Part shown: one piece after another, positions 3,297-15,792 of the stretch
How the letters are laid out: every line of letters begins with the position of its first letter
Numbering within the stretch: the first letter of the stretch is position 1
Assembly: GCA_032355985.1 (NCBI GenBank)
Contig: JAUKVZ010000021.1
Location: 1 to 25,743, forward strand
Direction: 5' to 3'
Length of the DNA stretch: 25,743 nt
Origin: Sarcodiotheca gaudichaudii
Taxonomy: Eukaryota > Rhodophyta > Florideophyceae > Gigartinales > Solieriaceae
Notes under the pieces: model-generated
Told to the model about the DNA's origin: nothing
Seen by the model: only the letters and a program-made list of their open reading frames with translations
Databases searched by the model: none
Program-made: the position numbers and the translations under genes

Positions 3297-3839
3297 TTAA
3301 ATATTCCTCACGTACTCCCTTAGATTTATACTATATTTACACGAGAAAAGGGAAATTTTAAGTTTGTGGGTACAAAAGTTGTTTATCGCCACAATTTTAG
3401 ATAATTTCTTTGATATAATTAAAGGTAGTATTTTAATGGTGCGTTCTTCTAGATGTCTTATGAGTAAAAAACTTTGGGGATAGGTTTTTTCCGAATTTTT
3501 TGTTAAATGTTTAGGTAGGCTTTTTATTAAAACAGTATTTAAGTTAGAAAAATGCTTCTCTAAGGATTTGAAATCTGTAGCAATACTGTGAGGTGATTTT
3601 TTTGAACTAGCACCGTACATTATTATTTTAATTAACTGATTAAAAGAATTATTTAACGAAGTTTTTGATTTTAGTGAAGTTTCTGCTAAACCACTGTAAA
3701 CTACCTCTTTGAAATGATTGAAGACTATTCAACAAAAAGTACTGAAGCAGATAAGAATAAGGATTTCTTCATTTAACAAAATAACGTTTTTGTAAACCAA
3801 GACAAAAGAAAGTAAACCAATAACACTTGAATTTAACAC
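3297..3839 (-). CDS. atp4: ATP synthase F0 subunit b (ymf39)
   Basis: Peripheral-stalk subunit of mitochondrial ATP synthase, anchored in the inner membrane. It is 180 aa if GTG 3839 starts it; the frame is open only back to 3848 and holds no ATG before residue 75, so GTG, or one of two ATT codons at 3845 or 3848, must be used. Two hydrophobic segments near the N-terminus (about residues 4-16 and 25-42) flank LLNEE, a motif I associate with algal and plant ymf39. A UGA at about residue 36 encodes Trp. The remainder is a lysine-rich hydrophilic stalk. The frame begins just after the cox3 stop (3853), so the two are surely co-transcribed. Assignment rests on position, length, topology and that motif. 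Confidence 0.8.
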
Positions 3840-3852
3840 TTTAATAATTTAT

Positions 3853-4671
3853 TTAAGAACCGCCTCATCAATACATAGAGACAAACAAAAAAAGTCAGAC
3901 TACATCCACAAAATGTCAATACCAAGCAGCTGATTCAAAACCAAAATGATGCTCTTGTGTAAGTTGATATTGAAGCAATCTAATCAAACAAATAGTTAAT
4001 GATATCGTTCCGATAATGACATGAAAACCATGAAAACCTGTTACCATGTAAAATGTGGAACCATAAATACCATCTGAAAGTCTAAAATCAGCTGTGTTAT
4101 ATTCATACGCTTGAAAAAACGTAAAGACAACGGCTAAGATTACAGTAATGAATAAACTAAAAATTGCTTGGGTTCGTGATTTCGAAACAATTGCATGATG
4201 ACATCAAGTTACGGTACAGCCTGAAAGTAAGAGAATGAGTGTATTTAAGAATGGAATTTCTCAGGGGTTTAAAACATTGATACCTTTAGGTGGTCAAATG
4301 GAACCAATTTCTATTGCTGGGGATAGGCTACTGTGAAAAAAGGCTCAAAAGAATGCAAAGAAAAAAAGTATTTCCGATACAATGAATAACATTACACCAA
4401 AACGCAAACCTTGTTGCACAACTCCTGTATGGTGACCTTCAAAAACGGATTCTCTTACGACGTCACGTCACCACACAAACATTACTAATAGAAGCAGGCA
4501 AAAACTCGCTAAAAATATATACGTACCGTTCACGTATGCATGCATATACATGACTCCACCTACAGCACAAGAAAAAGAAGCTAGAGAGGCTACGAATGGT
4601 CACGGACTCGGATCCACAAGATGAAAGGGATGTCTCTGAATCGACTTGGAAATTTGAGATAAAGGAATCAT
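3853..4671 (-). CDS. cox3: cytochrome c oxidase subunit 3
   Basis: Core subunit of complex IV. It is 272 aa from ATG 4671 ([20 protein letters not shown]), with seven membrane helices. Diagnostic stretches include [63 protein letters not shown] and the C-terminal [20 protein letters not shown]. Most Trp codons are UGA. The stop TAA at 3853-3855 is immediately followed by the atp4 frame. Upstream only 3 nt separate its ATG from the stop of the small TatA-like ORF at 4675-4797. Confidence 0.97.
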
Positions 4672-4674
4672 TTT

Positions 4675-4797
4675 TTATTTTTTTTCGAAAAATTGTGTAA
4701 CTATTTTATAAATTCTCTTCATAGTCAAAGGCTTAACACAAAACAGGATTGAAAAAATGACTGCTAACAAAAATAATTGGATTAAGCTAATTTTCAC
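4675..4797 (-). CDS. 40-aa TatA-like ORF filling the cox2-cox3 spacer
   Basis: Not a routinely annotated gene. After the cox2 stop come two codons, then GTG 4797 opens a 40-codon frame ending in TAA at 4675-4677, 3 nt before the cox3 ATG; all three frames are in phase. The product has one hydrophobic helix (about residues 3-21, ISLIQLFLLAVIFSILFCV), a KP turn, and a basic amphipathic segment with KRIYKIVTQFFEKK at the C-terminus. This is the TatA layout: short N-terminal helix with Q at its start, F plus small residue at the hinge (usually FG, here FC), Pro, then amphipathic helix. TatC is encoded elsewhere in this genome (13530-14291), which makes a partner plausible. The start is GTG, there are no Trp codons, and short AT-rich frames can arise by chance, so this is a hypothesis. 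Confidence 0.5.
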   Translation of the reverse strand: MKISLIQLFLLAVIFSILFCVKPLTMKRIYKIVTQFFEKK

Positions 4798-4803
4798 ATT
4801 AAG

Positions 4804-5572
4804 TTATTCACTTAGTTTATTAGAGAGCCAAGAAATATAATTAGGTAGTGATACTGCTTCAACTACAATTGGCATAAAACCATGATTAATTCCACAAATT
4901 TCACTGCATTGCCCATAGTAAATGCCTTCTCGTTTTACGAACAATGATGTTTGATTAAGTCGGCCTGGTATGGCATCACATTTTATTCCGAGTGATGGAA
5001 TAGCTCAGCTATGTAAAACATCTGCTGCAGTGACGATGACACGAATATGCGTATTAATTGGAATAACCATTCTGTTGTCAACTTCTAATAGTCGTAATTG
5101 GCCTAGCTCTAAATCCTCTTCTGGAATCATGTAACTGTCGTAAACAACAGATTCATTGTTTTCATTTGTGTAATCTGAGTATTCATAACCTCAATATCAT
5201 TGATGACCTAATGTTTTTATTGTAATTGCAGGTGAAATAATCTCGTCCATCGCATATAAGAGAGAAAAAGATGGGATTGCGATTATTAGAAGTATGAGTG
5301 CTGGTGTAATTGTCCAAACCATTTCGATTAAAGTTCCGTGAGTTAACGTCGAAGGAGTAGGATTTTGGTTTTGATCAAAGTGTCAAAGCGTACGGAATAA
5401 CATCCAAGAAACAAATACAGAAATGACGCATATGAAGAACATTAGGTCATGATGTAAGTTGATAATTCCTTCCATAATAGGTGTTGCTGGATCTTGAAAG
5501 CCTACTTGTCATGTTTCTGCGAAATCTGCAGCCAATGTATTAAGAGGGAGAAAAAGAAAGAACAATTTGTTA

Positions 5573-5583
<11 letters not shown>
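4804..5583 (-). CDS. cox2: cytochrome c oxidase subunit 2
   Basis: CuA-bearing subunit of complex IV that accepts electrons from cytochrome c. From ATG 5583 it is 259 aa; an in-frame ATG at 5595 would add MKQP. A hydrophobic leader ([20 protein letters not shown]) precedes the mature-type start [20 protein letters not shown]. Two membrane helices follow, then the intermembrane domain with HQWYWGYEYSD and the CuA site in [12 protein letters not shown] with its Glu ligand in between. It ends SWLSNKLSE. The start overlaps the end of cox1 by 11 nt (23 nt from 5595), which is why I prefer the inner ATG. UGA encodes Trp in several places. The gene is whole, unlike split cox2 in some algae. Confidence 0.95.
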
Positions 5584-7174
<1,591 letters not shown>

Positions 7175-13189: not shown

Positions 13190-13558
13190 TTAGCAACGCT
13201 TTTTGCCATACTTGGATCTTGCTTGTTTTCTGTTTTGAACGGGGTATAAATCACAAGAACCCCTAATGAAATGATAGCGCACTCCTGGTAAATCTTTTAC
13301 TCGACCACCTCGTACTAGGACGAGTGAGTGCTCTTGCAGTGAATGTCCTTCTCCGGGGATATATCCAATAATGACTTTGCCATTTGTCAGCTGGACTTTT
13401 GCTACTTTCCGTTCCGCTGAATTAGGCTTTTTCGGATTGGTGACGTACACTTTCATACAAATGCCTTTTTGTTGAGGACATTTTTTTAATGCTATTGATT
13501 TGGTCTTATTTGGCTTAGCTTTTCTAGATTTACTGAGTAGTTGTTGAGTGGTGGGCAT
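13190..13558 (-). CDS. rps12: ribosomal protein S12 (uS12m)
   Basis: Decoding-centre protein of the small subunit. It is 122 aa from ATG 13558 ([15 protein letters not shown]). The conserved core is complete: [20 protein letters not shown] near the middle, then [50 protein letters not shown] and the basic tail RSKYGKKRC. There are no UGA codons, so the standard code also reads it in full. Its first 29 nt overlap the end of tatC in another frame, and its stop at 13190-13192 touches trnE with no spacer. Confidence 0.97.
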
Positions 13559-14291
13559 TTGAAGTTTGAAGTTTATAACAAATAGACAAGAAAATTACTT
13601 CGTACAGGGTAAGTATCATAAAAACGATATAGAATTGCAGATAAACATCTGGAGGGGAAGCAAAAAATAACAGTAGTATAGTTACAAAGGACATTTGTTT
13701 TCGATAGAGTTGTAAGCTACGAGATATGTCGGACAAGTGTAAGAAAGCGGTGAGTTGGATACTTAAAACAATGAACACGTAGAAAAAAGTCCCTAAACAA
13801 GATCGAGTACGTAGAATTCAGTGCACATAATCTGAAATTCGAAATTGAATTTTTATATTAAGTACTGAATCAGTTGCTCGGGTAATTTCTCATTGGGATA
13901 GAAAAATCAATATTGTGGGTAAGAGGTAAATATAACAAAATATCAAAAACATTCAGTAGAACACTAAGGAAAAAATATTAAGCTTCCTTAAGAGACGAAT
14001 TTGATAACTGTATCAGCTACTTTCTATAAATTTGGTTATTTGATAAATAAAAAGTGGGAAAATTAACATAAACGAGATAACTAGGGCCAATGTTCAAGAA
14101 ACGTCGATTAGTTCTGTGACTTGCGTCACAATAAATGTTTTCTTAGAGGATTTGAGAAACGGGTAAGTCTCTAAGAAAAGTAATGATTGTATATATCAAA
14201 ATGAAATTAGCGTACAGATTATGAAACTAACAAGGGTGTAAGCGAATCGATACAAAATTTCTTTCGTGTAGAGATATAGTAGAGGTTTCAC
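13530..14291 (-). CDS. tatC: Sec-independent protein translocase TatC (ymf16)
   Basis: Multi-pass inner-membrane receptor of the twin-arginine translocation pathway, known from mtDNA of red algae, plants and jakobids. It is 253 aa from GTG 14291; there is no ATG close by, and an ATT at 14297 is the other option. About six hydrophobic helices are visible. Family features: TELIDV near residue 60 with the conserved Glu, [10 protein letters not shown], then the C-terminal region [20 protein letters not shown] with PPDVYLQF and [11 protein letters not shown] (TatC T/S-PPDv...llYE). At least six Trp are UGA. It overlaps rps12 by 29 nt at its 3' end and begins 14 nt after trnK. A TatA-like ORF occurs at 4675-4797. 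Confidence 0.88.
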
Positions 14292-14807: not shown

Positions 14808-14882
14808 GGGGGTATAGTTTAGACAGGCAAAAACATGTGTTTTGCATACACAAAATCATTGGTTCGAATCCAATTACTTCCA
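14808..14882 (+). tRNA. trnA(ugc): tRNA-Ala(UGC)
   Basis: Acceptor GGGGGTA/TACTTCC (two G-U pairs), anticodon stem TGTGT/ACACA around loop TTTGCAT (UGC), T arm ATTGG-TTCGAAT-CCAAT. First gene of the plus-strand unit. Confidence 0.93.
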
Positions 14883-14911
14883 TACCCGTAACATACCAAA
14901 TAATTACAACA

Positions 14912-15451
14912 ATGAATTTTTCTAAGTTTAAACCTCCTCGCTTGTATTTATATTACAACTACATATCCAAATTTGATCTATTAGATAAACAAATTCACGT
15001 ACATAAGTTTTTATCTCCCTCTTTACAATTGAATAAACTGGTTGTGAAAATTCAATTACCCAACCCCACTCCAAGTAAAACTAAACCTTATCATTTTTTT
15101 ATTTTATCAGAACTTTCAACCCAACAACGCCCTCTATTAATTCAACCACCAAAAAAATTCTTTTTCAAAATGTTCTCGTTAAAAACAACAATCCGAAAAG
15201 AAAAATTCGCTAATTTTTTAGATATCTTTACAAATTCTGTTTTTCTTACAAAACTTTCAACACTAAACTTTCAAAATAACTACGTAAACTCCAGATTGAG
15301 TAATTTTTTCTGCGTAGAAGAATTGAAAAATTTAAATCTCACGCTTTTTAATCGCCGATTAGAATCAAATGCAGATTTTACTTGCAAAATACAGTACAAT
15401 ACTGAGCAAGCTAAACTTTTAAAGACTTATAATTTACTACCTTTAGTCTAA
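14912..15451 (+). CDS. rpl5: putative ribosomal protein L5 (uL5m)-like protein
   Basis: It is 179 aa from ATG 14912; the frame is open further back but only inside trnA. Length equals bacterial L5 (about 179 aa). Family landmarks appear in order: LYYNYISKFDLLDK near residues 12-26 (L5: HY..v..DLl.K), LNKLVVKIQL at about 40-49 (pKleKIvlni), LSELSTQQRPLLIQ (l..isGQkP.itkA), SLKTTIRKEKFANFLDIFTN (kvtLRg.kMy.FLd+L), and a C-terminal ADFTCKIQYNTEQAKLLKTY (diTivTtakt.eEa..LL). No TGA or TGG codons occur. It is very AT-rich and basic. L5 is not on the usual gene list of florideophyte mtDNA as I recall it, so an uncharacterised ORF is the alternative. It lies 29 nt after trnA and about 50 nt before trnY. 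Confidence 0.62.
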   Translation: MNFSKFKPPRLYLYYNYISKFDLLDKQIHVHKFLSPSLQLNKLVVKIQLPNPTPSKTKPYHFFILSELSTQQRPLLIQPPKKFFFKMFSLKTTIRKEKFANFLDIFTNSVFLTKLSTLNFQNNYVNSRLSNFFCVEELKNLNLTLFNRRLESNADFTCKIQYNTEQAKLLKTYNLLPLV

Positions 15452-15720: not shown

Positions 15721-15792
15721 AAGAGAATAGCTCAAAGGTAGAGCTTTGGTTTTCAAAACCAATGGTTGAAAGTTCGAATCTTTCTTCTCTTG
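15721..15792 (+). tRNA. trnW(uca): tRNA-Trp(UCA)
   Basis: Acceptor AAGAGAA/TTCTCTT, anticodon stem TTGGT/ACCAA around loop TTTCAAA (UCA), T arm GAAAG-TTCGAAT-CTTTC, discriminator G. The UCA anticodon reads UGA as well as UGG, which explains the in-frame UGA codons in most proteins. The 52 nt before it (15669-15720) hold no recognised feature. Confidence 0.95.

Follow-up and report, generated by a model that had tools for sequence, protein, structure and literature searches.

What does the interval between cox2 and cox3 in red algal mitochondrial DNA (mtDNA) encode, if it encodes anything at all? In the DNA analyzed here (25,743 bp, hereafter the window), a preliminary description had proposed that this interval holds a hidden TatA-like gene. 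The window, in which TGA is read as Trp and gene order is as in published florideophyte tables, has the look of a red algal mitochondrial genome that is complete or almost so; its gene names, except tatC, come from a reading of translations together with published gene order, without family searches. The features on which the argument rests are the following.

3297 to 3839, minus strand: atp4 (ymf39), no ATG start, GTG being the listed candidate.
3853 to 4671, minus strand: cox3, downstream neighbor of the open reading frame (ORF), named from its translation; 73% identical to the cox3 of L001, introduced below.
4672 to 4803, minus strand: the 132-nt "spacer" between cox2 and cox3, which the ORF fills almost entirely.
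4675 to 4797, minus strand: the tatA-like ORF, GTG start, 40 codons plus TAA.
4804 to 5595, minus strand: cox2, upstream neighbor of the ORF, named from its translation; 79% identical to L001 cox2 over residues 17–263.
13530 to 14291, minus strand: tatC, GTG start; Pfam PF00902 at E 5.8e-19, TatC structure 4b4a at E 9.4e-12.

Two other features of the window stand apart from this question. An unnamed 204-codon GTG frame lies between trnA and trnY (14837–15451, plus strand); unnamed frames, orf159 and orf173, occupy the atp6-tatC interval of two other florideophytes in the available text of PMC11050817 and PMC10455443. At 15721–15792 (plus strand) ARAGORN calls a tRNA-SeC(tca) which, because TGA is Trp in the window, is probably trnW(UCA), as the accessible part of PMC12189398 annotates it in Ahnfeltiopsis.

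On the minus strand, the ORF runs from a GTG at 4797–4795 to a TAA at 4677–4675, and its product is MKISLIQLFLLAVIFSILFCVKPLTMKRIYKIVTQFFEKK (a plain translation gives V for the GTG). It is in phase with both cox2 and cox3, 6 nt from the cox2 stop (4806–4804) and 3 nt from the cox3 ATG (4671–4669); the 40 codons, the phase and the distance to cox3 had been given correctly beforehand, and only the distance to cox2, put at 7 nt, needs correction. Could such a frame have arisen by chance in non-coding DNA? The spacer is rich in AT and the code has two stop codons, which favors open frames, and the start is a GTG. Among 5000 dinucleotide-preserving shuffles of the spacer, however, a frame of at least 40 codons is found in only 0.24% when ATG and GTG starts are allowed on the sense strand, in 0.48% when TTG is added, and in 0.8% when both strands are read with all three starts. 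The non-ATG start also has precedent in this genome, because atp4 and tatC likewise lack an ATG start and are listed with GTG: the first in-frame ATG is codon 74 in atp4, with an in-frame TAA four codons upstream and no ATG in between, and codon 75 in tatC. In relatives, tatC starts are annotated as GTG, ATA or TTG, according to the available portions of PMC12189398 and PMC10455443.

A second red algal sequence provided the comparison on which the coding argument depends. A single scan with a cox3 motif, run over the 84,980 prokaryote species genomes of genome_contigs, returned two stretches, L001 and L002; the motif required TGA for Trp, and algae with TGG there would be missed. L001 (contig WTKB01000062.1) belongs to a metagenome-assembled genome (MAG) labeled Aquimarina and carries red algal-like mtDNA. 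Identity to the window in L001 or its MAG is 87% for cox1, 79% for cox2 and 73% for cox3; nad5 from the same MAG is 61% identical over residues 1–562, and the order around cob, atp4, cox3, cox2 and cox1 matches. From these likenesses we infer that L001 is red algal mtDNA present as a contaminant in the MAG; no RuBisCO was found in that MAG. Two DNA patterns and three protein-based scans of viral_contigs gave no further red algal loci, and the peptide pattern, used in two viral_contigs scans, matched 40 and 56 stretches, none of which encodes a relative. With blastn, the cox3-cox2 stretch had no match in phages and met two plasmid records with partial matches at 66–76%. Cryptophyte mtDNA surfaced in none of these scans.

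These searches also brought up several cases of apparently misplaced organellar DNA. The Aquimarina-labeled MAG SS36427bin_21 (G001, a species representative) apparently contains at least three red algal mtDNA contigs (L001, L007 and C270, the last being L058) as contamination. NZ_CP053901.1 (L003; 26,385 bp), named as Proteus mirabilis plasmid pJPM35-3, carries a mitochondrial-type cox2 with six in-frame TGA codons and a cox3, and is apparently the mitochondrial genome of a eukaryote that was deposited under a plasmid name. NZ_CP110133.1 (L004), named Peribacillus frigoritolerans plasmid unnamed1, has mitochondrial cox3-like pieces at 4941–5090 and 515–604 and may also be organellar. Finally, L002 (JAFDXD010000160.1, from the Bacteroidetes MAG SZAS-14), with ribosomal protein genes beside nad1, nad4, cox3 and nad6 and with TGA as Trp, reads as a protist-like mitochondrial genome, its gene names being taken from translations.

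In L001, the cox2-cox3 spacer is 131 nt long and contains an ATG frame of 39 codons (6526 to 6407, minus strand) whose TAA touches the cox3 ATG and whose product is MRISLFQLTLLFIFFVFLFYPKVLQNFIRRFLRYFKKNK; as in the window, the frame lies between cox2 and cox3 on their strand. A 39-codon ATG frame is expected in 0.12% of 5000 shuffles of this spacer. The L001 frame is out of phase with cox2. A leader extension of cox3 or a read-through product of cox2 had been considered for the ORF and was dropped: a TAA separates the ORF from both genes, and the L001 ORF does not share the phase of cox2.

The two frames were compared codon by codon over codons 2–24, where the alignment is gapless (23 sites). 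Codon position 1 is identical at 7 of 23 sites (6.1 expected) and position 3 at 8 of 23 (6.9 expected), while position 2 is identical at 15 (11.3 expected, p 0.033). Even so, 12 of 23 residues are identical when both are read in frame, compared with 3 of 22 for either other frame, and eight of these twelve are specified by different codons, the other four by the same codon: Ser4 is AGC in one ORF and TCG in the other, and the codons for Leu5, 8, 10 and 11 each have two differences. Eight matches with different codons occur in 66 of 20,000 codon-order shuffles. When the window product is shuffled within its two halves, 12 gapless identities are reached once in 20,000 shuffles and the pairwise alignment score three times in 20,000; full shuffles never reach that score (0 of 20,000). 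Two-sequence BLASTP with default handling gave no alignment between the two ORFs, and their C-terminal halves align less well, having basic charge and amphipathicity in common more than residues. Because positions 1 and 3 are at chance and yet residues match in frame through different codons, this comparison demonstrates, as far as two diverged red algal sequences permit, that the frame is conserved as protein and not as DNA. The claim of a hidden gene is thereby supported, and for the check suggested with it, an alignment of many florideophytes for a conserved frame, one relative speaks in its favor (two species only).

Published gene tables are consistent with this picture. In the available parts of the reports on Fushitsunagia (PMC11050817), Grateloupia (PMC10455443) and Ahnfeltiopsis (PMC12189398), the gaps between cox2 and cox3 are 131, 144 and 170 nt and those between cox1 and cox2 are 4, 3 and 17 nt, respectively. 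An overlooked gene would leave just such a gap of gene size among closely packed neighbors, although only gene tables, and no spacer sequences, underlie this point. The literature also holds evidence in favor of a chance frame: a barcode paper describes the cox2-cox3 spacer as non-coding, in keeping with the preliminary statement that it is generally so treated, and reports fewer indels in cox1 and cox2 (PMC3527623, available text). More indels in the spacer than in these genes weigh somewhat against strict coding. Against this stand the rarity of such frames in shuffled spacers from both algae and the in-frame conservation of residues with different codons, and we find a chance frame barely credible. 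That the cox2-cox3 spacer is a gene can be taken as almost certain.

Which protein, then, does the gene encode? Both products begin M-(K/R)-I-S-L-x-Q-L and have L-F at positions 18–19; E. coli TatA has I-S-I-W-Q-L followed by L-L-F. In both ORFs the Gln and Phe in question are Q7 and F19, and E. coli TatA has them one residue later, as Q8 and F20; the step from one to the other is 12 residues throughout. One criterion for TatA, a polar residue near position 8 of a short N-terminal membrane helix and 12 residues before the hinge Phe, is therefore met by the ORFs. A second, the Phe-Gly hinge, is not: the Phe is kept, and the Gly is replaced by Cys in the window and by Tyr in L001. The Gly after the hinge Phe, Lys24 and Asp31 are invariant in ten of ten proteobacterial TatA, and none of them is kept in the algal ORFs. 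The criterion of a second conserved Phe is met in the window ORF, whose F37 aligns with F39 of E. coli TatA; that column is Phe in 10 of 10 rows (the two ORFs and eight of the ten bacterial TatA, with gaps placed by MAFFT).

An AlphaFold2 model of the window product, made from the two-row alignment, has helices at residues 5–21 and 23–39 (pLDDT 82, pTM 0.38), and a hydrophobic moment as large as that observed is found in 1.9% of 5000 shuffles for the window ORF, 0.04% for the L001 ORF and 8% for E. coli TatA. On the model helix 23–39 and the hydrophobic moment together, the criterion of an amphipathic helix after the hinge is met. As a prediction, the model fits TatA, but it also fits other small proteins, and Foldseek found no match for it in the PDB. 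The N-terminal half demonstrably has the TatA layout, in which a short membrane helix opens with Ser-x-x-Gln and a Phe stands 12 residues after the Gln; beyond it, a break followed by a basic amphipathic helix is predicted. Of the TatA pattern first described for this ORF, the short helix, the Gln, the hinge Phe and the basic amphipathic helix stand; the glycine of the TatA hinge is absent, its place being taken by Cys.

Profile searches gave a weak signal pointing in the same direction. A search that was not steered towards TatA, in which a two-row profile of both ORFs was run against 177,635 distinct PDB sequences, yielded five matches at E up to 10, of which the four best are E. coli TatA, all weak (E 0.03–0.6), and the fifth is YidC (E 7.7). 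None of 1000 column-shuffled two-row profiles reached the E. coli TatA score, and none of 500 reached the mean over 11 TatA. The comparison of hidden Markov models that had been recommended as a check came out in favor of TatA, with hhalign probabilities of 87% for E. coli TatA and 70% for 10 proteobacterial TatA. Single-sequence phmmer searches of the PDB with each ORF found nothing.

A proteobacterial TatA profile was then built from ten fetched TatA plus E. coli TatA. Against it, the window ORF has the top score, 9.7 bits, among the 203 small ORFs taken from the window and L001, and 5 of 3000 shuffles do equally well; the L001 ORF comes second with 5.6 bits, a score that 11 of 2992 scored shuffles attain. 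It should be noted that the ten sequences were hand-picked, leaving pathogens aside, among 60 listed of 94 matching records and were found by likeness to E. coli TatA, and that a TatA-family annotation is present at the site in three of the ten picks and absent there in the other seven. The proteobacterial descent of mitochondria was a reason for building this set, but E. coli TatA had by then already come up, and because of this order the p-values obtained with it are optimistic. In the reverse direction, the two-row profile scores 6 of the 11 proteobacterial TatA at 1.4 bits or less.

Other profiles gave little or nothing. With a profile of 32 Bacteroidota TatA, picked by a pattern that requires the Phe-Gly hinge (one of 33 loci, L011, gave no pick), neither ORF beats its shuffles (247 of 3000 for the window and 251 of 3000 for L001; ranks 2 and 6 of 203), and the best Bacteroidota score of the two-row profile is equalled by 153 of 1000 column shuffles. 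With a combined TatA profile, the window ORF is equalled by 10 of 3000 shuffles, and the L001 ORF shows no excess over its own (247 of 2990). Pfam PF02416 (TatA_B_E) matches neither ORF at a limit of E 10. In NCBIfam, the sole match of the window ORF is TatA (E 0.27; 11.7 bits vs a cut-off of 121), and the L001 ORF has no TatA match; curated TatA family cut-offs in Pfam and NCBIfam are thus reached by neither. Matches to other families are weak as well: five in PHROGs for the window ORF, the best of unknown function at E 0.033, and MotB_plug in Pfam for the L001 ORF (E 0.076).

These results leave room for a real, conserved gene for a small membrane protein other than TatA, such as a small subunit of the respiratory chain or of its assembly apparatus, built of a membrane helix and a basic tail. 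The coding evidence is independent of TatA, family profiles match weakly or not at all, the ORFs lack the hinge glycine and the neighbors are cox genes, all of which such a protein would accommodate. It would not account for TatA being the best match in the unsteered PDB-wide search, for a Ser-x-x-Gln-Leu start and a Gln-to-Phe spacing the same as in E. coli TatA, for the presence of tatC in the window, or for what is annotated at the same place in cryptophytes. There, in the available text of PMC5910586, the mtDNA contains an annotated cox2-tatA-cox3 block, and cryptophyte and red algal mtDNA group together. The blocks common to all compared cryptophytes are two others, not this one (same source); cox2 and cox3 stay together in nearly all the cryptophytes, Hemiselmis excepted, and Hemiselmis orf45 has "marginal" similarity to Rhodomonas tatA, as far as the accessible parts of PMC5910586 and PMC2397417 go. 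In our analysis, an annotated tatA in the same slot, in mtDNA that groups with that of red algae, is the strongest single argument for the tatA name. We therefore regard a gene unrelated to TatA as unlikely, and the spacer gene as very likely a TatA homologue. The earlier TatA-like assignment is supported by the best, if weak, PDB matches, by ranks 1 and 2 of 203 and by the cryptophyte gene order; family cut-offs and Bacteroidota TatA lend it no support.

Among the matches listed in our literature search, with subscription journals and gene records outside its scope, no paper places tatA in the red algal cox2-cox3 spacer. The tat genes (tatA, tatC) are said to occur in rhodophyte mitogenomes in the available text of PMC9551565, which counts 282 red algal mitogenomes, and "tatA", without tatC, is listed for Mastocarpus papillatus (PMC7800575). 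Because a later table gives tatC for another record of this species (PMC12189398, available part), we think that this "tatA" names tatC. Earlier recognition of a red algal tatA is not excluded. As to naming, we call the ORF a TatA-like gene that is probably tatA by position, formal membership by score or by the Phe-Gly hinge not being met.

TatC is the expected partner of the product, and the earlier statement that it is encoded in the same genome holds: the frame at 13530–14291 is the one window gene named by family search. In the MAG of L001, a TatC-like frame with three TGA codons lies on a separate contig (L007, 479–1225, plus strand) and adjoins rps12, as tatC does in the window. The name is weakly supported, resting on 25% identity (E 9.1e-4) to window TatC and on place, and the frame has no Pfam or NCBIfam match. 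Both algal TatC have Gln where the bacterial row has Glu, a residue that we take to be E. coli Glu103. As a separate observation, an (S/T)PPD stretch found both in window TatC and in a bacterial TatC is absent from the L007 protein, and tatC may be fast-evolving in that lineage.

The ORF might be only a relic of tatA, decayed or reused, that has dropped out of any working translocase with TatC. It retains no counterpart of Gly21, Lys24 or Asp31, it is without the C-terminal part of TatA, the partner in the other alga escapes both family databases, and the Glu-to-Gln change affects both algal TatC. Decay, however, would not leave an intact frame with residues conserved despite saturated codon positions 1 and 3, and we rate a relic as very unlikely. 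We consider it likely that the spacer is the gene for a minimal, diverged TatA that works with TatC, with the translocase function inferred, without expression data and from two species. In such a scheme, the ORF would share a transcript with cox2 and cox3, and its translation would begin at GTG in the window species and at ATG in L001; the product would insert in the inner membrane, its basic helix facing the matrix. Bacterial TatB Glu8 bonds with TatC Thr208 (PMC13323110, available text), and algal Gln7 is at the place equivalent to this Glu8; the Gln of the membrane helix may thus dock on TatC in the same manner, and several copies would gather at TatC, letting a folded protein cross.

Taken as a whole, the data make it reasonably probable that the florideophyte spacer is a mitochondrial tatA of 39–40 aa, in an ancient cox2-tatA-cox3 order as in cryptophytes, and that it completes a TatAC machine in place of a TatC-only one. 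If so, red algal mitochondria have TatAC and fewer mitochondria remain in the "TatC-only" class; the cargo of mitochondrial Tat can then be sought in a group that is multicellular and farmed, and a marker treated as spacer DNA is subject to selection on a protein, with consequences for the modeling of its indels and substitutions.

Among known systems, E. coli TatA (PDB 2LZR, 2LZS and 2MN7) resembles the ORFs in its I-S-x-x-Q-L start and in the Phe 12 residues after the Gln. Both have a short membrane helix, an amphipathic helix and a second Phe near its end. Proteobacterial TatA differs in having the Gly after the Phe, Lys24, Asp31 and a C-terminal tail, for which the ORFs have no equivalent. 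E. coli TatA is also longer, at 89 aa, than the window product of 40 aa. The nucleus-encoded mitochondrial TatB of plants and oomycetes (PMC6251230, available text) is, like the ORF product, a small TatA-type partner of mitochondrial TatC, but it is nuclear, longer and has Glu in the membrane helix, whereas the red algal ORF is mitochondrial and has Gln. In the jakobid Andalucia godoyi, TatA and TatC are both mitochondrion-encoded, and the red algal pair would be of the same two-component type; the Andalucia pair rescues Tat export in E. coli, whereas no such data exist for the red algal pair, and both TatC-only machines tested, those of Naegleria and Malawimonas, failed there (PMC6251230, same portion). 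The main text of that paper, as available, names jakobids, cryptists, ochrophytes and Ancoracysta as carriers of TatA and includes archaeplastids in the groups that have TAT, without the terms "red alga" or "rhodophyt". A further counterpart is cryptophyte mitochondrial TatA, in a block that is broken or inverted in some cryptophytes (accessible parts of PMC5910586 and PMC2397417). Compared with it, the red algal product, at 39–40 aa, is unrecognized by profiles and shorter than the 45-codon tatA-like frame of Hemiselmis, and the likeness rests on position, with no direct alignment. Like the red algal ORF, cryptophyte TatA (PMC5910586; Hemiselmis orf45, PMC2397417) is encoded in mtDNA, sits in the cox2-cox3 slot and has tatC in the same genome, and the cox2-tatA-cox3 order common to both bears on the history of red algal and cryptophyte mtDNA.
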